DNA of 64,000 nt, from positions 1,922,001 to 1,986,000 of the forward strand of contig JAQTHY010000001.1 of NCBI GenBank assembly GCA_029433345.1, written 5' to 3'. Shown in pieces: positions 9,012-56,560 of this stretch. A program made the translations under genes and the position numbers. The first letter of the stretch is position 1. Each line of letters begins with the position of its first letter. The notes beneath the pieces are model-generated. The model was given only the letters and a program-made list of their open reading frames with translations. It ran no database searches and was not told the origin of the DNA. This stretch comes from Orbaceae bacterium ESL0727. Its GTDB lineage: Bacteria; Pseudomonadota; Gammaproteobacteria; Enterobacterales; Orbaceae.

Positions 9012-10328
9012 CTAGCTATTAAATGCACTTTCGCCATGGCTATTGATATCCAATCCTTCACGTTCTTGTTCTTCCGGAACACGTAATCCAACGCAAATAT
9101 CAGCTATTTTATAGGCAATAAACGCGACAATGGTTGTCCATACAACGCAAGTCACAATGCTCATTGCTTGAATGCTCACTTGTTTTAGCATGGTTACGCC
9201 TTCTGAATAACCGACACCACCGAGTGATTCCGAGGTAAAAACGCCCGTTAATAAACAGCCGATAATGCCGCAAACACCATGTACACCAAACACATCACAG
9301 GTGTCATCCACTTTTAACATTCGCTTAAGTGAAGAGACGCCCCATACACCGGCTGCACCACATATCAAACCGATAACCAACGCACCGCCTACACCAACAA
9401 AGCCGGCTGCAGGTGTAATGCCGACTAATCCCGAAATCACTCCCGACGCAGCACCAAGACAAGAGGGTTTGCCACGTAAAAACCATTCCGCAATGGTCCA
9501 AGCTAATACAGCACTTGCAGTGGCAACAAAGGTATTAATAAACGCTAGCGCCGCAATTTGATCCGCGTGTGTAGATGATCCAGCATTAAAACCAAACCAG
9601 CCAATATATAAAATCGCTGCACCTAAATAGACAATCGGTAAGTTAAACGGTTTGAGCGGTTCGCGATTAAAGCCAATACGGGTTTTCAATAAATAGGCCC
9701 CAACCAGTCCAGCAACAGCAGCATTTATGTGTACAACGGTCCCCCCGGCAAAATCTAATGCGCCTTCGTCACCTAAAATACCGCCACCCCACACCATATG
9801 CGCCATGGGAATATAAGAAAAGGTAAACCAAATTAACATAAAAATCATCACCGCTGAAAACCGGATGCGTTCAGCAAAGGCTCCCGGAATCAAGCAACAG
9901 GTGATACAGGCAAACGATCCTTGAAACGCGATCCACACCAACGTATAAATCGTACCTGATACATCATTTACGCTAATACCGGTCAGTAAAATATGGTGAA
10001 AATTACCAAAAAAACCATTACCTTCACCAAAAGCAAGACTATAGCCATAGACAACCCACAATACGGCAATTAATGAAAAAGTGACTAAAATCTGTGCTAG
10101 CATAGAAAGGACATTTTTAGATCGAATCAATCCGCCATAAAACAGTGCGATACCCGGTACTGACATAAATAGCACCAGCGCGGTACAGATCATCATAAAA
10201 CCATTATCTGCTTTATCCACCACGTTTATGGCCGTTTCGGTTGCCATATCGTTGATAACAGCTACATCATCAGCCAAGGCGGATCCTGCCAATAAAAGCA
10301 GCGGAAGAAAAATCAATTTTTTGTACAT
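9012..10328 (-). CDS. amtB: Ammonium transporter AmtB
   Basis: Trimeric inner-membrane ammonium channel. The 438-residue product has an N-terminal signal peptide (MYKKLIFLPLLLLAGSALA) and eleven hydrophobic segments. The conserved pore histidines are in PMAHMVWGGG and FGVHGVCG. The start at 10328 is chosen because AAGGGTGA is correctly spaced upstream; the frame stays open to 10367 without a good ribosome site. It lies downstream of glnK, whose product plugs AmtB when nitrogen is plentiful, and is presumably expressed from the sigma-54 promoter ahead of glnK. Confidence 0.95.
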   Translation of the reverse strand: MYKKLIFLPLLLLAGSALADDVAVINDMATETAINVVDKADNGFMMICTALVLFMSVPGIALFYGGLIRSKNVLSMLAQILVTFSLIAVLWVVYGYSLAFGEGNGFFGNFHHILLTGISVNDVSGTIYTLVWIAFQGSFACITCCLIPGAFAERIRFSAVMIFMLIWFTFSYIPMAHMVWGGGILGDEGALDFAGGTVVHINAAVAGLVGAYLLKTRIGFNREPLKPFNLPIVYLGAAILYIGWFGFNAGSSTHADQIAALAFINTFVATASAVLAWTIAEWFLRGKPSCLGAASGVISGLVGITPAAGFVGVGGALVIGLICGAAGVWGVSSLKRMLKVDDTCDVFGVHGVCGIIGCLLTGVFTSESLGGVGYSEGVTMLKQVSIQAMSIVTCVVWTTIVAFIAYKIADICVGLRVPEEQEREGLDINSHGESAFNS

Positions 10329-48518: not shown

Positions 48519-48791
48519 TCAATGTAAACGACTGATATCGCGTTCTTTCCAAATTACTCGACAAGTTTCTAGCTCAAACTGTCCCCAACGGTAAAAATTC
48601 AAGTGCATAAAATAGGCTGCGGCACCATTTTTAATCAATTTTGCGCAAAACGGGTGATATTCAATTTCAATTGTCGGTTTAGTGATGTGATCATAGCGAA
48701 AACCAATTACTGTCAAATTTTCTTCGACTAATTTAGCAATGGCTCGATTAACCGAGTCTAAGCTATTACTAATAATTTGATTGTTAGTCAT
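48519..48791 (-). CDS. Phage early protein of unknown function
   Basis: 90 residues from ATG 48791, whose start overlaps the MuB stop (TAATG). It contains IKNGAAAYFMHLNFYRWGQF and a hydrophilic N-terminus; no recognised family. Translational coupling suggests a role alongside transposition. Confidence 0.6.
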   Translation of the reverse strand: MTNNQIISNSLDSVNRAIAKLVEENLTVIGFRYDHITKPTIEIEYHPFCAKLIKNGAAAYFMHLNFYRWGQFELETCRVIWKERDISRLH

Positions 48792-50023
48792 TACACATTC
48801 CCCCGATCCTTGATGCATTCACAAATAATTTCCCCGGTTACAATCGGCGCACTAATTCGTGCTGCCAGATTTAATGCGCCCGATATTAAATTGTTTACTG
48901 CCAGTGGGTAACAAAGTGAACGGATCTGTTGTTCTGTGCTACCACGTTTGCTTGAAACAACTCGCAAACGATTGATGATTTCAGTAAATGCACTAGCATC
49001 GAAAAGTGTTTTATAATCTATCTCAATGCGAGCAAATTTATGTTGCACGTACTCTTCGACTTTAAAATCTAGTGGTTTGAGATTGACGATTTCGCAGCGT
49101 TGTACAACTTCACGTACTTCTGGGTTATATTCAGAAAGTTTGGTTTGTAACTCGGTTTGTCCGATTAAGATAATTGCTAGCAATTTCTTAAAACCTTCTT
49201 GCAGCTCATAAAAACGCTTTAAATGTTTAAGGGTTGGAATCGGTAACCCATGAGCTTCTTCAATAATTAATAGATGCTTACGCCCTGATAGTGCACTATT
49301 TTTAAGTAATGTATGCATCTGTCTTGCCCTTGCTTCTGCGCTACGTTTCGGTTTAGCCTGTGGATCAATAGCATTAATAATCGCACTGCTAATATCCATA
49401 CTTTTGAGTGATTTCCCTTTTACTTCGTTATCTTCAAGCCCTAAAACATAAGGTTCAATTACAGTAATTGGTTCATGATTGATATTGATCCAATCAATCA
49501 AATCGTGCCGTAAAGTGGTTTTACCGCTGCCTGATTCCCCAATTACTGCCAACATTCCACCATGTTTTGCAGTCTGTCGCATAGCTGCACGAACGTAGCG
49601 AATATCATCAGAGAGGTAAACATCCGCATCATCAAACATTTCATCCGTGAATGGATCACGTGGAATGCGAAAATGTGCTTTTGCATCTCGATTTATTGTC
49701 TGTTTTCGTAGTAACATATATACTGACTCCTTTGTTTGTTTATTTGAGTCAACTGGCACAGCGTTGTCCGCCAAGATTTCGGCTGTGTCAGTTTCTTCAA
49801 CAAAAATATCAATTAAATATTCTTTAGCTAAACCAAGTGTTGATAATGCTTTTTCAATTCTTGGCTCAAGTGTCGAACGTTCAATCGATTTTGGCCACTG
49901 GTTATGATTAATAATTAGATTAATCACAGCTGGGCTAATCGAATTACCTTTGAAATCAATATGTTTAGCAAGTTGAGTTTGCTTAATATTGAATTTTTTC
50001 ATTACTGTTTTTAGTTTGATCAT
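48791..50023 (-). CDS. MuB-type transposition target-capture ATPase
   Basis: AAA+ protein that binds target DNA, activates MuA and gives target immunity. The 410-residue protein has an N-terminal lambda-repressor-like helix-turn-helix (IKQTQLAKHIDFKGNSISPA), Walker A GESGSGKT (162-169), Walker B HLLIIEEAHGLP and a GQTELQTKL sensor region. It belongs to the ExeA/TniB-related AAA family seen in BcepMu-type phages and is about 100 residues longer than Mu B. Translationally coupled to the transposase (TAATG). Confidence 0.9.
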   Translation of the reverse strand: MIKLKTVMKKFNIKQTQLAKHIDFKGNSISPAVINLIINHNQWPKSIERSTLEPRIEKALSTLGLAKEYLIDIFVEETDTAEILADNAVPVDSNKQTKESVYMLLRKQTINRDAKAHFRIPRDPFTDEMFDDADVYLSDDIRYVRAAMRQTAKHGGMLAVIGESGSGKTTLRHDLIDWININHEPITVIEPYVLGLEDNEVKGKSLKSMDISSAIINAIDPQAKPKRSAEARARQMHTLLKNSALSGRKHLLIIEEAHGLPIPTLKHLKRFYELQEGFKKLLAIILIGQTELQTKLSEYNPEVREVVQRCEIVNLKPLDFKVEEYVQHKFARIEIDYKTLFDASAFTEIINRLRVVSSKRGSTEQQIRSLCYPLAVNNLISGALNLAARISAPIVTGEIICECIKDRGNV

Positions 50024-51807
50024 TATTTAATACTCCTAAAACCGGTTGTACCATTGCCGACAATAATAGGTGTTGTAAATGAACGAATAAGTGATTCTAG
50101 GGCTTCTTCTGGCACACCACTTGCATAGCGAGCAGATAACCATTTATTTTCATCTTTAGTTAATCTGCGACCGATCTCTACTGTTATTCGCATTAATGCA
50201 GCCGTTAGTGTTAATAGTGTCGGAGCGGGTTTTAAGTGCTCCGGTGTCGCAATTTCATTACCTTTGCCGACTAAGTAAAGTGGATGATCAATATTTTTTA
50301 AATAACTTAAAGTATCCAATTTGCCACCGAACGGCGCCACTTGTTTCTGTTTAGCCTTTTTGATTTCATCCGCTGTCATATTAGGGTAAGCTATCGCATC
50401 CATTGCTTTCGCTGCGTGCTCAATTGCCGTATCACCTTTGGATTTAAACTCGGTGCCAATAATGGGGGCATCTAAATGTTGGCCAAACTCGTCGTAATTG
50501 CGGTCAGGTTCAGCACGATAAATTAATGCTTCACCATCATAACGTGGTACTTCAATTTGAATGGCACAGTCGCCGTAAACTAGTGCCCGAATAGTCACTT
50601 TATCTTTTGCTGTGATACCATCAAAATCCTTTAAATGATAGATTTGTGAGTTATCCGCCTGCGGATGTTTAAACGTAATCGTCAAATCAGGGCGTACTTG
50701 TCGTACCTGTTCTTTGCTTGCCATTAGTGCTTGGCAAATTTCTACCGATGGCAATAAGCGTAATTGTTCAGCAGTGATTTTTTGCCATAGGCTTTGCCGT
50801 GATGTCGGTTCATTTAAACCAACACGGCGTAAACGAGTATCTTGCCCTGGTAAACAATTTGCGTTATACGCTTCCGCCCAAGCCATTGCGGAGTGATTTA
50901 ATTCCTCAATACTACTAACGGGTTGGAACTTTAAACGGCTTTCGAACTGTGTTTCGATGAGATTATTGGCATTCTCAACCCCACCCTTTGCACACGTGAG
51001 AGCATTACCTGCCTCATGTTCGAAGTACTTTACTTCAAGGTGATCTAGTAAATTCTTAATCGCACTTGATGTATTAGCCGAACCTTTATCCCAATAGATT
51101 AATTGAGGCACACCATGGAACAGTCGACCTTCTTGTTTGCCCCAGGCAAACATTAAGAACTGGAATAAACTATGTTGATTTTCGCCCGCGGCTTCAACGT
51201 ACCAGGGAATAATCATGCCGCTGGCTCGGTCATAGAGCGTATAACGCCAAACTTTGTATTTCACTTTTGCGTAATTTTCGAGTTTATTTTTATAAAAATC
51301 TCGGTCACGCATAATGTGTTGCTTATTCTTCATGTAATAAATCAAACATAATGACGGATCTATTTCATGCACATAGTTCGGGTGCAATGCTCGTAATGTT
51401 TGCACTGGATTTGCCTGTTTTTGCGCCTTCACATTCAGTTTACGTTGACGCATTAAACGGTTTAGTGTTGCATTACTCACATTAATTTCATGCCCATTTT
51501 GTTCAAGAATACCGCGTGCCGTTGTAGTAAACAGCGTTTGCTTGCCATTATCTCTCACTGATTCACGGCTCATCGCCGCAAGTGCCAGCAATGAATCTGT
51601 TTGTACTGACATTTTTCCTTTATCAACTCTCGTCTTACGTTCGCTGGACCAACCGCATAATTGTTTTAATTGTCGATAAATAGTTTGCCGTGAATAACCC
51701 AAAAATGCCTGTGCTGCGTCTAATATTGCGCCACGTTCGCCATGACTAACACTATCCAACTTGATAGCAACACCGTTCAAATAATCACGAATGTTTGGGT
51801 TTATCAT
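50023..51807 (-). CDS. MuA-type DDE transposase
   Basis: Integrates and replicatively transposes the phage genome. The 594-residue protein has N-terminal DNA-binding helices (GYSRQTIYRQLKQLCGW), a second HTH (INVSNATLNRLMRQRKL) and an rve/RNase H-fold core. Its probable catalytic triad is D150 (YVHEIDPSL), D240 (LIYWDKGSAN) and E278 (CAKGGVENANNLIE). A Mu-type beta-barrel domain and C-terminal region that contacts MuB follow. Length and motifs fit the Tn552/IS1604-like group used by BcepMu. Confidence 0.92.
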   Translation of the reverse strand: MINPNIRDYLNGVAIKLDSVSHGERGAILDAAQAFLGYSRQTIYRQLKQLCGWSSERKTRVDKGKMSVQTDSLLALAAMSRESVRDNGKQTLFTTTARGILEQNGHEINVSNATLNRLMRQRKLNVKAQKQANPVQTLRALHPNYVHEIDPSLCLIYYMKNKQHIMRDRDFYKNKLENYAKVKYKVWRYTLYDRASGMIIPWYVEAAGENQHSLFQFLMFAWGKQEGRLFHGVPQLIYWDKGSANTSSAIKNLLDHLEVKYFEHEAGNALTCAKGGVENANNLIETQFESRLKFQPVSSIEELNHSAMAWAEAYNANCLPGQDTRLRRVGLNEPTSRQSLWQKITAEQLRLLPSVEICQALMASKEQVRQVRPDLTITFKHPQADNSQIYHLKDFDGITAKDKVTIRALVYGDCAIQIEVPRYDGEALIYRAEPDRNYDEFGQHLDAPIIGTEFKSKGDTAIEHAAKAMDAIAYPNMTADEIKKAKQKQVAPFGGKLDTLSYLKNIDHPLYLVGKGNEIATPEHLKPAPTLLTLTAALMRITVEIGRRLTKDENKWLSARYASGVPEEALESLIRSFTTPIIVGNGTTGFRSIK

Positions 51808-53432: not shown

Positions 53433-53445
53433 TGTCAAGGTGTTT

Positions 53446-53805
53446 ATGAGTAAAAATATACCCATCGGACTAAGATTACGTGAGCAACGTGAAAAACTTG
53501 GTTATAATCAAACAAATTTTGCTGAACATGCAGGGATAACTAGGAAAACATTATTTGGTTACGAGAATGGTACGAGGTCTCCTGATGCTGCTTCGCTTGC
53601 AGCATGGGAAGAACTTGGATTAGATGTGCTCTATGTTGTTGTTGGTCAAAAAAATAGAACTATCAATAATAGTAATGCAAAAATATCTCACGAAGAACAA
53701 GAGTTAATTGACGTATTCGATGAAATGACGCCCAGCCAGCAAAAGGCTCTTCTTGAACTCGGCAAAGTCATTGCGCAACCAGAACCGAATAAACAAGCGG
53801 GATAG
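53446..53805 (+). CDS. Phage repressor, XRE-family
   Basis: 119 residues with an N-terminal HTH_3 domain (GLRLREQREKLGYNQTNFAE, then HAGITRKTLFGYENGTRSP) and a short C-terminal region DVFDEMTPSQQKALLELGK in place of a peptidase domain. It is therefore not a LexA-like self-cleaving repressor. ATG 53446 has AAGG five bases upstream; a GTG at 53440 overlaps that site. It probably maintains lysogeny through the palindrome at 53413. Confidence 0.85.
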   Translation: MSKNIPIGLRLREQREKLGYNQTNFAEHAGITRKTLFGYENGTRSPDAASLAAWEELGLDVLYVVVGQKNRTINNSNAKISHEEQELIDVFDEMTPSQQKALLELGKVIAQPEPNKQAG

Positions 53806-53932: not shown

Positions 53933-54271
53933 ATGAAAGTTATTAAGTTGTTATTTGGTTTAATTTTTACATTAATTTTGGTCGGTTGCGTTGCTAGTAG
54001 CGGTAATAATTTCAATGAAAAAGGACTTAGTCAACTACGAATTGATGTGACAACAGTTCAAGAGGCAACTAATTTACTCAATGCTAAACCAACACAAGTG
54101 ATAAAAAATACTAATGAGACATGGATTATTTGGCGTTATGTTACGACTAATGGTCTCACAATGAAGACAGAAATTAAATCAGCTACTCTTATCTTTGATA
54201 CACAAGGTAAATTTAAACGTATCCAACAATTACAAAATGTTGATACTAGTGGAATTGATGTGAAAAATTAA
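53933..54271 (+). CDS. Small lipoprotein with BamE/SmpA-like fold
   Basis: 112 residues with a lipoprotein signal (LFGLIFTLILVGC, lipidated cysteine near residue 20). The mature domain shows the BamE-like pattern: IDVTTVQEATNLLNAKPTQV, then WIIWRYVTT and ATLIFDTQGKFKRI. It is the first gene of the cargo block after the repressor. Such prophage lipoproteins are often expressed in the lysogen and can block superinfection; that role is inferred. Strongly AT-rich. Confidence 0.75.
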   Translation: MKVIKLLFGLIFTLILVGCVASSGNNFNEKGLSQLRIDVTTVQEATNLLNAKPTQVIKNTNETWIIWRYVTTNGLTMKTEIKSATLIFDTQGKFKRIQQLQNVDTSGIDVKN

Positions 54272-54284
54272 ATAGGAAACAACA

Positions 54285-54611
54285 ATGAAGAAACTCTTTT
54301 TATTTAGCGCGATCATCATATTAAGTGGTTGTGCAACTAAAAACTATGGACGGCAAGGAGAGTTAACACAGTATGAAAAAGACAACTTATCCTGCCATGA
54401 AATTGCCCTTGAAGAAGCCAAAGTACAAGGTTATTTAGATCACGTTGAGAAAGAAAGTCAATTTGATGGACGTTCGGTATTATCATTTCTCGGCGATTTT
54501 GGTGTCGGTAATGTGATGGAAAAGAAAGCGGCTATTAAAAGTGCTAATGCTAGGCTTGTGCAGTTGAAAGAACTTGCGAGAATGAAGAAGTGTGATGAGG
54601 TTGTGGAATAG
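54285..54611 (+). CDS. Conserved prophage lipoprotein
   Basis: 108 residues with a signal ending ILSGC, then NYGRQGELTQYEK and SRSVLSFLGDFGVGNVMEK-like sequence (observed FDGRSVLSFLGDFGVGNVME), a pattern I associate with small lipoproteins carried by prophages of enterobacteria and relatives. A Cys pair (about residues 37 and 103) may form a disulfide. It is 13 bp after the first lipoprotein gene. Function unknown. Confidence 0.72.
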   Translation: MKKLFLFSAIIILSGCATKNYGRQGELTQYEKDNLSCHEIALEEAKVQGYLDHVEKESQFDGRSVLSFLGDFGVGNVMEKKAAIKSANARLVQLKELARMKKCDEVVE

Positions 54612-54633
54612 AAATACTTAATGTAAGGAATAA

Positions 54634-55638
54634 ATGATGACTGATACTAAAGATATTAAACCTAAAAAAGTAACATTGCGGGCATTTTTCATCAAAAATC
54701 CTAATTTAACAACAGCCACAAGTGAAGTTTATGATAATTTATTAGATAGATTACAAAAATCAGAAACAACAGAAGAACGCTGTATGTTACTAAATGTTGA
54801 AGATCCTAATAAAGAAAAAGATTTAATCTCATATTATGAGGATTTAAATATTTCTAAATCTATTTTCGCAACTATGTTACGTATTGCACCAGGTGAAGAT
54901 GCTCAACATATTACTGATGAACTACTCAAAAGAAAGATATTTTCAATAGATGATCTGGAAAATTTAGAAGAGAATAAATTAGAAATTACACCAGCAATAT
55001 GTAGAGATCACTATTATTTTTCATTAAACAATGAATATTTAGTAACTAACTTACCAGGTAATAGAACAATTACTAATTTACAAACATACATTGGCTGGTT
55101 TATCAAAAATGAATTATTAGAATTTACACCAATCATTATTCCACCCACTGATACAAAATTAAGTGACTTAAAAGGTATTGTAGTTAAGGATCCAATTAAT
55201 ACTCCAACTTCAACATCTGTAAGTAATGATAAATCTAATACTAATTTATCAACAACGCATGAAAAATCTATACGATTAAATAAATATGTAATTAACATTA
55301 TTAAAGATCTTTTACGAGATAATAAGACATTACAAGAGACGGAGTTAGGTCAACTTATTTCAGCTGAATTATTAATTAAATTTAAAAAACCTAAAAAAAT
55401 GTCAGAAGATGAATATAAAAAGATATTAGGGGCTTATTTAAAACCAGTTGCTGATCTCGATAATATTTCTTTTAGACCAACTAATGGAAAATCGATAATA
55501 AAAGGAAAAGATTTGTTAAAAACGAAAATTGTTGACATTGATGTTACAAAAACTGGTAAGATATCGGAGCCAGCATTATTACAAGAGATGAGTAAATTCT
55601 TGATTGAATTAAAGCTAGATGAGAAAAAAACTACTTAG
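54634..55638 (+). CDS. RexA-like soluble protein of a putative phage-exclusion pair
   Basis: A 334-residue soluble protein with no confident family. Its C-terminal part (about 235-325) runs parallel to lambda RexA: an ELLIKFKKPKK strand where RexA has a LDIVIKPKFKR strand, then LDNISFRPTNG against FSDISLRAKDE, then a helix ALLQEMSKFLIELK. The middle (about 85-160) has a loosely RexA-like order. A Ser/Thr/Asn linker (about 190-212) separates the halves. It overlaps the membrane-protein gene by 20 bp and lies in the repressor region, as rexA does. Very AT-rich, suggesting recent transfer. Homology is remote and unproven. Confidence 0.5.
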   Translation: MMTDTKDIKPKKVTLRAFFIKNPNLTTATSEVYDNLLDRLQKSETTEERCMLLNVEDPNKEKDLISYYEDLNISKSIFATMLRIAPGEDAQHITDELLKRKIFSIDDLENLEENKLEITPAICRDHYYFSLNNEYLVTNLPGNRTITNLQTYIGWFIKNELLEFTPIIIPPTDTKLSDLKGIVVKDPINTPTSTSVSNDKSNTNLSTTHEKSIRLNKYVINIIKDLLRDNKTLQETELGQLISAELLIKFKKPKKMSEDEYKKILGAYLKPVADLDNISFRPTNGKSIIKGKDLLKTKIVDIDVTKTGKISEPALLQEMSKFLIELKLDEKKTT

Positions 55639-56080
55639 TTTTATTATAATTATTTTTATGACTGTTGCGTTATCATCATTGAGTGATGTGCGACCGGATA
55701 ACTTTTTTATATCAACAATATTTACTGTTTCAGGAATCATGTTTTCTATAGGTTTAGGACTTATTACAACATTTAATCTTAATGGCGTTAAAAATCGAAA
55801 TTACATAAAAACTATAAGAGCAAATATTAATACAGTCAGAAATTCATTCATTTGTTATTTTTTGATAACAACTATTTGTTATGTACTTGATCAATATATT
55901 TCGTTTAATGATATCACTATTTTTCAATCCAAGTATGTAATTTGTATATTTAATTTCCCGATCTTATTTTGTTTATTCATGTTTTATGCTGTCTGTTATT
56001 TTATTGTGAATTTTTTAGAAATCCAAAAGTTGAATAATGATATTTTTGATAAAGTTAATGAAGAAAACGAGAATAACTAA
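55619..56080 (+). CDS. RexB-like membrane protein of a putative phage-exclusion pair
   Basis: 153 residues with about four hydrophobic segments (5-21, 29-52, 76-91 and 106-132), a basic loop after the second (NGVKNRNYIKTIRANINTVR) and a short charged C-terminal tail. Lambda RexB (144 aa) has the same size, segment spacing, basic loop and LxxLN-type end, and opens as an ion channel when RexA is activated. It is translationally coupled to the upstream gene. The match is topological plus faint sequence pattern, so a holin-like or unrelated membrane effector remains possible. Confidence 0.5.
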   Translation: MRKKLLSFIIIIFMTVALSSLSDVRPDNFFISTIFTVSGIMFSIGLGLITTFNLNGVKNRNYIKTIRANINTVRNSFICYFLITTICYVLDQYISFNDITIFQSKYVICIFNFPILFCLFMFYAVCYFIVNFLEIQKLNNDIFDKVNEENENN

Positions 56081-56124
56081 TCTGCCCTTGTTCAAATTAC
56101 ATTCCTAGTCATTAAGATCATACT

Positions 56125-56158
56125 AACCTCATACGTTCCATTAACTATGAGGTTTTTT
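56125..56158 (+). terminator. Terminator ending the cargo block, overlapping a ribosome site
   Basis: A 9-bp stem AACCTCATA / TATGAGGTT with a 12-base loop and six T, directly followed by the holin-candidate ATG. The GAGG in the 3' arm (56149-56152) is also the only ribosome site for that gene. Confidence 0.8.
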
Positions 56159-56560
56159 ATGATTCGTCCCATCAAATATTTAGTCAAAATTCGTCTGCTT
56201 AAATGGTATTTAGCTGCATTAGTATTGTTTACCGTTATTCTTGTGTTGTCACCGCAACAACTTCCCGTTGTTATTTATAAATTTTCCCTGGTATTGCTTT
56301 CGGCGGTTGTTGGTTATCACCTCGACCGCGCACTTTTTCCTTATGCGTCACCCGGAGGCTACCTTTATCAAGATTGGAAAATATATGGTAAACATTTCTA
56401 TATCAATGAAGCTGAAAAGGATGGCGAAAATGAAATTCCAACCATTCTTTGCGCTGAATATCCAGTATTAGAGTCGTATAAGACGATTTTTTCAGTAGTA
56501 CTAATCCGCCGTGCCATTATTATTTTTGCTGTCATCCTTGGCGTTACCTTTGGGCTTTAA
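56159..56560 (+). CDS. Holin candidate / lysis membrane protein
   Basis: 133 residues with three hydrophobic segments (about 15-31, 33-51 and 110-130) and a conserved-looking GYHLDRALFPYASPGGYLY between them, as in putative holins of BcepMu- and B3-like phages. ATG 56159 follows GAGG. It lies immediately before the SLT endolysin and spanins, consistent with a lysis role. Confidence 0.75.
   Translation: MIRPIKYLVKIRLLKWYLAALVLFTVILVLSPQQLPVVIYKFSLVLLSAVVGYHLDRALFPYASPGGYLYQDWKIYGKHFYINEAEKDGENEIPTILCAEYPVLESYKTIFSVVLIRRAIIIFAVILGVTFGL

Follow-up and report, generated by a model that had tools for sequence, protein, structure and literature searches.

A putative RexAB-like gene pair in a transposable prophage of Orbaceae bacterium ESL0727

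Two overlapping genes in a Mu-type prophage

Two adjacent genes, here called A and B, lie in a transposable prophage of Orbaceae bacterium ESL0727. The stretch analyzed is a 64,000-nucleotide (nt) segment of contig JAQTHY010000001.1 (positions 1,922,001 to 1,986,000), referred to below as the window; unlabeled coordinates are window positions. A is an open reading frame (ORF) at 54634..55638 on the + strand, encoding a 334-amino-acid (aa) RexA-like protein with a predicted fold of the RexA/RdgC type. B (55619..56080, +) encodes a 153-aa RexB-like membrane protein with four transmembrane (TM) segments predicted by a hydrophobicity scan. The two ORFs share 20 nt. A preliminary description, made from the sequence alone, had reported both genes with these sizes and positions and had proposed that they are remote relatives of the lambda rexAB pair. 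The analysis presented here suggests that A and B probably form a RexAB-type abortive-infection (exclusion) module. Their family has no link to lambda RexAB at the level of sequence profiles.

The prophage also carries leftward genes for a Mu-type transposase A (50023..51807, −; phrog_310, E 7.7e-80) and a Mu-type DNA transposition protein B (48791..50023, −; phrog_296, E 1.7e-66). These genes, at 48791-51807, identify the element as a transposable prophage, as had been supposed. A Cro/CI-type helix-turn-helix repressor of 121 aa (53440..53805, +; Pfam HTH_3, E 9.2e-10) has no S24 peptidase match in the family scan. The pair had been placed just after this repressor; in fact, two lipoprotein-like genes intervene after the end of the repressor at 53805, making A and B the fourth and fifth rightward genes counting from the repressor. 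The first of the two (53933..54271, +; 112 aa) has a signal-type N-terminus with the motif LVGC and matches phrog_3135 (function unknown; E 4.1e-6), and the second (54285..54611, +; 108 aa), directly left of the pair, matches phrog_10370 “lipoprotein” (E 4.2e-40). After B and before the lysis genes there is a terminator-like hairpin (56125..56158, +) with an 8-bp stem (AACCTCAT/ATGAGGTT), a 14-nt loop and a following T run. A 53-nt stretch holding the hairpin has a z-score of −5.1, and none of 200 shuffles was equally stable. With its 14-nt loop, the hairpin is absent from a consensus terminator scan whose loops were limited to 3-8 nt. Holin (56147..56560, +; Pfam Holin_2-3, E 2e-36; phrog_1528, E 6.7e-37), endolysin, terminase and portal genes follow.

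Predicted fold and membrane layout

Evidence for a relation to RexAB comes from the predicted structure of A, for which lambda RexA is the only Protein Data Bank (PDB) chain matched at E ≤ 0.001, as the proposal of a remote relative had anticipated. The model appears to share the two-domain, RdgC-like fold of the soluble partner RexA (structure 8TWQ); A was found neither to be a member of the RdgC family nor to be closer in fold to RdgC than to RexA. Among viral models in BFVD, the top match of A is a protein of siphovirus ctylc9 (E 1.2e-10), and none of the best 50 matches is named RexA. The match of ctylc9 to the B model is weak (E 1.0).

For B, the evidence is one of layout. Its hydrophobic segments lie at residues 6-24, 31-49, 76-94 and 107-125, and the loop after the second has a net charge of +5, in agreement with the roughly four segments and basic loop described previously. 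Lambda RexB, scanned identically, has four segments and a loop of +4. The window B is thus predicted to be a four-TM partner with a basic TM2-TM3 loop, encoded beside a RexA-type protein. Across the family, 19 of 28 distinct B sequences have four segments, with loop charges among those 19 of 0 to +7; the remaining nine have three, the third segment falling below the cut-off of the scan. The predicted model of B has no significant PDB chain match, and lambda RexB itself has none at E ≤ 0.01. Structure searches with B in VIA-align and BFVD returned helical-bundle noise, and the best BFVD match (A0A6G5XUJ4, E 4.7e-3) was rejected.

Gene order, topology and position agree with those of lambda RexAB, as claimed earlier: a soluble RexA-fold protein is followed by a four-TM partner, behind a repressor. 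The two systems differ in that sequence similarity is undetectable, and in that A-B is known here in a transposable prophage. Full-length A proteins are 299-354 aa long versus 279 aa for lambda RexA. A gap of 15 nt separates lambda rexA from rexB; at nearly every A-B locus the two genes instead overlap, mostly by 17-32 nt, though not in locus L041.

Occurrence of the family and its position behind repressors

By translated search, A was located in Escherichia phage PhiR68_2 (47%), in Acinetobacter phage TCUAN1 (42%), in 34 IMG/VR contigs and in five genome contigs (Photorhabdus khanii, Aggregatibacter kilianii, Gilliamella sp. Pra-s52, an Alcaligenaceae bacterium and a Muribaculaceae metagenome-assembled genome, or MAG); there was no plasmid match. 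The full 151-aa frame of the TCUAN1 B homologue (L008:8914-9369) begins upstream of the only annotated ORF, a shorter one at 9151-9369. Three of 99 genomes searched as relatives contain A, namely the host genome and two more of its genus, and among 369 genomes of the class only two chance-like matches (E 0.04-0.05) were seen outside the host genome. A MuA protein was found in none of 28 records holding A, many of which are fragments, in a search made without a positive control. Among 5,426 complete E. coli genomes, 42 hold the pair at 99% identity or more (megablast), always on the chromosome; the 20 matches listed are all annotated “hypothetical protein,” and one of those 20 holds an IS1.

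The two genes travel together. B adjoins A in 40 of 42 loci examined (L002, L007-L047), and in the other two the sequence itself stops, after 75 residues of B (L020) or within a truncated A (L042). Several of the 42 are near-identical, and L009-L047 contain 24 distinct full-length A sequences (<97% identity). Outside this set, genome G005 has an A split over two frames and no B in its 3.7-kb locus. As judged from substitution ratios, both genes are under purifying selection: six close pairs of A give dN 0.003-0.109, dS 0.06-2.8 and dN/dS of about 0.02-0.08, and five close pairs of B give dN 0.04-0.22, dS 0.23-1.7 and dN/dS 0.10-0.18, several dS values exceeding 1 and being saturated.

In most loci the pair lies in an immunity region behind a repressor. 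PhiR68_2 has the gene order cro, cI, A, B, one small ORF, gam, bet, exo, so that the site of A-B in this lambdoid phage corresponds to that of rexAB in lambda (cI, rexA, rexB). Upstream repressor candidates, picked by eye from ORF lists at one per locus, were found in 25 loci (23 of the 42, the window and L003), with HTH_3 matches in 22 and Peptidase_S24 matches in 19. The 19 loci of the 42 outside this count are 11 near-identical ones (L002, L013, L017-L020, L022, L034, L038, L043, L045), four in which the sequence begins too near A (L009, L010, L015, L040) and four with no candidate (L036, L041, L044, L047).

Evidence against kinship with RexAB

Several results weigh against a RexAB relationship or limit its support. 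First, neither A nor B is listed by the Pfam RexA (PF15969) or RexB (PF15968) models at E ≤ 10, although both models recognize the lambda proteins and a 46% relative. More generally, no convincing match to Pfam, PHROG, PADLOC or NCBIfam was obtained for either protein, even at E ≤ 10. Second, hhalign comparisons of the A family with lambda RexA (as a single sequence and as families of 4, 8 and 13) and of the B family with lambda RexB (single sequence and a family of 10) gave probabilities of at most 0.4% in local, greedy and global modes, with shallow query alignments (Neff ~3 and ~2). Profile comparison, which had been suggested as a check, was thus never significant for either protein, and the alignments did not recover the collinear C-terminal pattern (ISFRPTNG versus ISLRAKDE) that had been offered as support. 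Profile searches of PDB sequences (hmmsearch) found nothing for A at E ≤ 10 and, for B, no matches except those of the serotonin-transporter type at E ≥ 0.14. Third, the RexB kinship of B rests solely on layout and linkage. Of the relation proposed originally, then, predicted fold favors the RexA half, sequence comparison shows no link, and the RexB half is a matter of gene arrangement.

Fourth, pairs unlinked to repressors had been named in advance as a finding that would count against the relation, and four loci are of this kind, the 25 with repressor candidates notwithstanding: in L036, L041, L044 and L047, inspection by eye showed no repressor-like ORF on the strand of the pair within 2.5 kb. 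The pair is thus not always accompanied by a repressor gene nearby. In the Alcaligenaceae contig (L044:52-12864), it lies behind TniA/TniB/TniQ-type genes of a Tni-type transposon and faces a DUF2357-PDDEXK_7 protein, an AAA-type protein (PADLOC PDC-M26A) and a cytosine methylase. The first two of these neighbors are presumably restriction-type (McrBC-like), and the set is defense-like cargo by resemblance. In the Muribaculaceae MAG contig (L047), a tyrosine integrase and a SocA/Panacea gene lie upstream; the assignment of this contig to Bacteroidota could be a binning error. A GH19-type gene lies just upstream of the pair in L041, and the upstream ORFs of L036 were judged by eye. The transposon and integrase-bearing copies fit a portable defense module, and the RexAB relation stands with them.

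A variable stretch ahead of the holin gene

MuA matches were found in 12 of 35 genomes of the genus, probably Gilliamella, and holin matches in 11, the host genome being included in both counts; the other MuA-bearing genomes have no A match. The interval between MuA and holin was read in nine of the 11 other MuA-bearing Gilliamella genomes, leaving out G011 (interrupted MuA, no holin match) and G017 (holin on a contig that starts inside MuA). A repressor and a holin are recognizable in all nine. A homologue of the 108-aa lipoprotein is present in five, and other short ORFs replace it in four. The cargo ahead of the holin (corresponding to window 53933-56560; loci L112-L120) differs between prophages. 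G004 has none. The cargoes of G020, G019 and G007 look alike by eye, that of G020 matching PDC-M11A/B; those of G029 and G010 also look alike, the first gene of G029 matching PDC-S42; PDC-M18A/B occupies the stretch in G028; the cargo of G008 consists of an NA37-family protein and a 398-aa protein; and G009 has three ORFs, two of which were scanned without a convincing match. PADLOC candidates are therefore matched by three of the five cargo types scanned. The PADLOC library describes itself as covering known and candidate systems, and “PDC” in its names we take to mean “phage defence candidate.” Given this variation and the candidates in three of five types, A-B is one alternative occupant of the stretch, which points to a defense-type variable stretch in Gilliamella transposable prophages.

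One of these alternatives resembles A-B in its organization. Like A-B, PDC-M18AB is a soluble and membrane pair (338 aa and 180 aa), found at the corresponding place in a related Gilliamella prophage (L120:631-2192, −). In the Pseudomonas transposable phage Ps59 (L122:3992-5563), its homologues lie between repressor and holin, just before the holin, and in Bacillus and Halomonas phage records (L123/L124:2920-4500) they are one gene behind an S24- or LexA-type repressor. The last two records, from a Bacillus pumilus phage and a Halomonas phage, have nearly the same pair and neighborhood, which is odd for distant hosts. PDC-M18AB has no significant profile similarity to A or to lambda RexA/RexB. 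A resemblance of PDC-M18A to RexA was a by-eye idea that the profile comparison did not support, the best result being a weak local match of M18B against B (P 0.0057, around TM2). PDC-M18A was found in none of 369 genomes of the class in a search without a positive control, and a literature search on the PDC names found no paper. Its size pattern and repressor-side position are those of RexAB, and it is possibly another RexAB-like lineage.

Proposed function and alternatives

How might the pair work? Only five RexAB-like systems have been described by the count of PMC12894663 (January 2026). In RexAB and RexABpp, DNA is bound by the RexA-type protein, which triggers a growth-arresting membrane effector, the RexB-type protein (PMC12894663, PMC11077077). 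RexABpp of Pseudomonas putida prophage P1 (PP_5643-PP_5644) is an anti-phage pair of a divergent RexA-fold protein, which HHpred links to RexA at 98%, and a four-TM partner; two genes separate the pair from a CI-like repressor ahead of it (PMC12894663). The window pair likewise has two genes between repressor and pair, a likeness drawn from the published description rather than from sequence. Exclusion has also been shown for CarolAnn gp44/gp43, Sbash gp30/gp31 and Butters gp30/gp31, each a RexA-like protein with a membrane partner (PMC11077077, PMC12894663). These are temperate actinophages, and their pairs are likened to A-B by description only. Searches of titles and abstracts, in open papers mainly, found no RexAB-like pair in a transposable phage among the matches listed, and a prior description is possible. 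Passages of PMC4378225 mention lambda rexAB only, rexA and rexAB are absent from the main text of PMC11990801, and PhiR68_2 serves as a target phage in PMC13190303, whose main text contains neither rexA nor rexB.

By analogy, we picture A as a DNA-binding dimer that would act as a sensor and stay silent during lysogeny. Replication of another phage would lead it to engage B, a predicted four-helix inner-membrane protein, and activate it; the resulting leaky membrane and growth stop would abort the infection. DNA binding, the A-B interaction, the membrane effect, the trigger and protection we infer. What sequence and prediction show is the two genes, their constant pairing, purifying selection, the predicted fold of A, the layout of B, the repressor position in most loci and the use of the pair as cargo, interchangeable with candidate defense systems of relatives and carried in a transposon next to restriction-type genes. 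By predicted fold, layout and position, the RexAB-like module itself is real and widespread.

The main rivals are switch control and a reversal of roles, both of which we consider unlikely. Under switch control, A would bind DNA or the repressor and favor induction, with B counteracting it, and exclusion would be a by-product. Lambda RexA does stabilize the lytic state, with RexB as its antagonist (PMC11077077), and most copies with enough upstream sequence follow a repressor candidate. The four loci without one argue otherwise, as do the defense candidates that occupy the same stretch in relatives. PMC11077077 does not decide between exclusion as the selected function and exclusion as a by-product. 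Under a reversal, of similarly low probability, A would be a cytosolic effector that B tethers to the membrane until infection, as in mycobacteriophage Butters, whose gp30/gp31 pair has been described with reversed roles (PMC12894663). The greater conservation of A (lower dN/dS) is in keeping with this, but the RexB partner is the effector in four of the five described systems (lambda, RexABpp, CarolAnn and Sbash; PMC12894663) and no enzymatic domain matched A in the family scans. It is improbable that A is simply another DNA-binding protein of the RdgC/CENP-N fold whose resemblance to RexA has no functional meaning. Least probable of all is a place for B in the lysis cassette, as antiholin or extra holin regulated by A: B lies just upstream of the holin gene and has a chance-level match to holin phrog_1129 (E 6.8), but a terminator-like hairpin separates the two, the PhiR68_2 and TCUAN1 homologues are in immunity regions, and nine relatives keep the holin with A-B absent from the interval.

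Why would such a family matter? First, RexAB was the first abortive-infection (Abi) system linked to anti-phage defense, and its trigger and mechanism are still open. A family missed by sequence searches offers many natural variants in tractable hosts, including E. coli prophages, Acinetobacter, Photorhabdus, Aggregatibacter, Gilliamella and one Muribaculaceae MAG. Second, copies outside immunity regions allow a direct test of whether exclusion is selected or is a by-product of switch control. Third, and tentatively, for we are inclined to doubt it, a RexA-fold sensor with a four-helix membrane partner may be a common, portable defense architecture hidden by divergence. The window family would then be one lineage, replacing rexAB in lambdoid phages, alternating with other defense cargo in transposable prophages and riding transposons outside phages, and PDC-M18AB would be another.

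Other observations on the prophage

The 108-aa lipoprotein weakly matches the Cor superinfection-exclusion PHROG (E 0.0026), perhaps via its signal peptide only. In the phage collection, Pseudomonas phage Komp_PAO1_1 has the MuA nearest to that of the prophage (60%). The prophage occurs twice in the host genome, in the window from about 45275 onward and on contig C2:1-34355 in the opposite orientation. The two copies differ by one mismatch and by 8 + 21 gap openings over ~34.5 kb, and both contigs stop at the same internal point of the prophage. The C2 copy of A has a one-base frame difference; it was considered as a decayed gene, but the copies differ almost only by insertions and deletions, making assembly error as likely as decay. 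Since the first ATG of the holin ORF is overlapped by the terminator-like hairpin, the probable start of this gene is the ATG at 56159.
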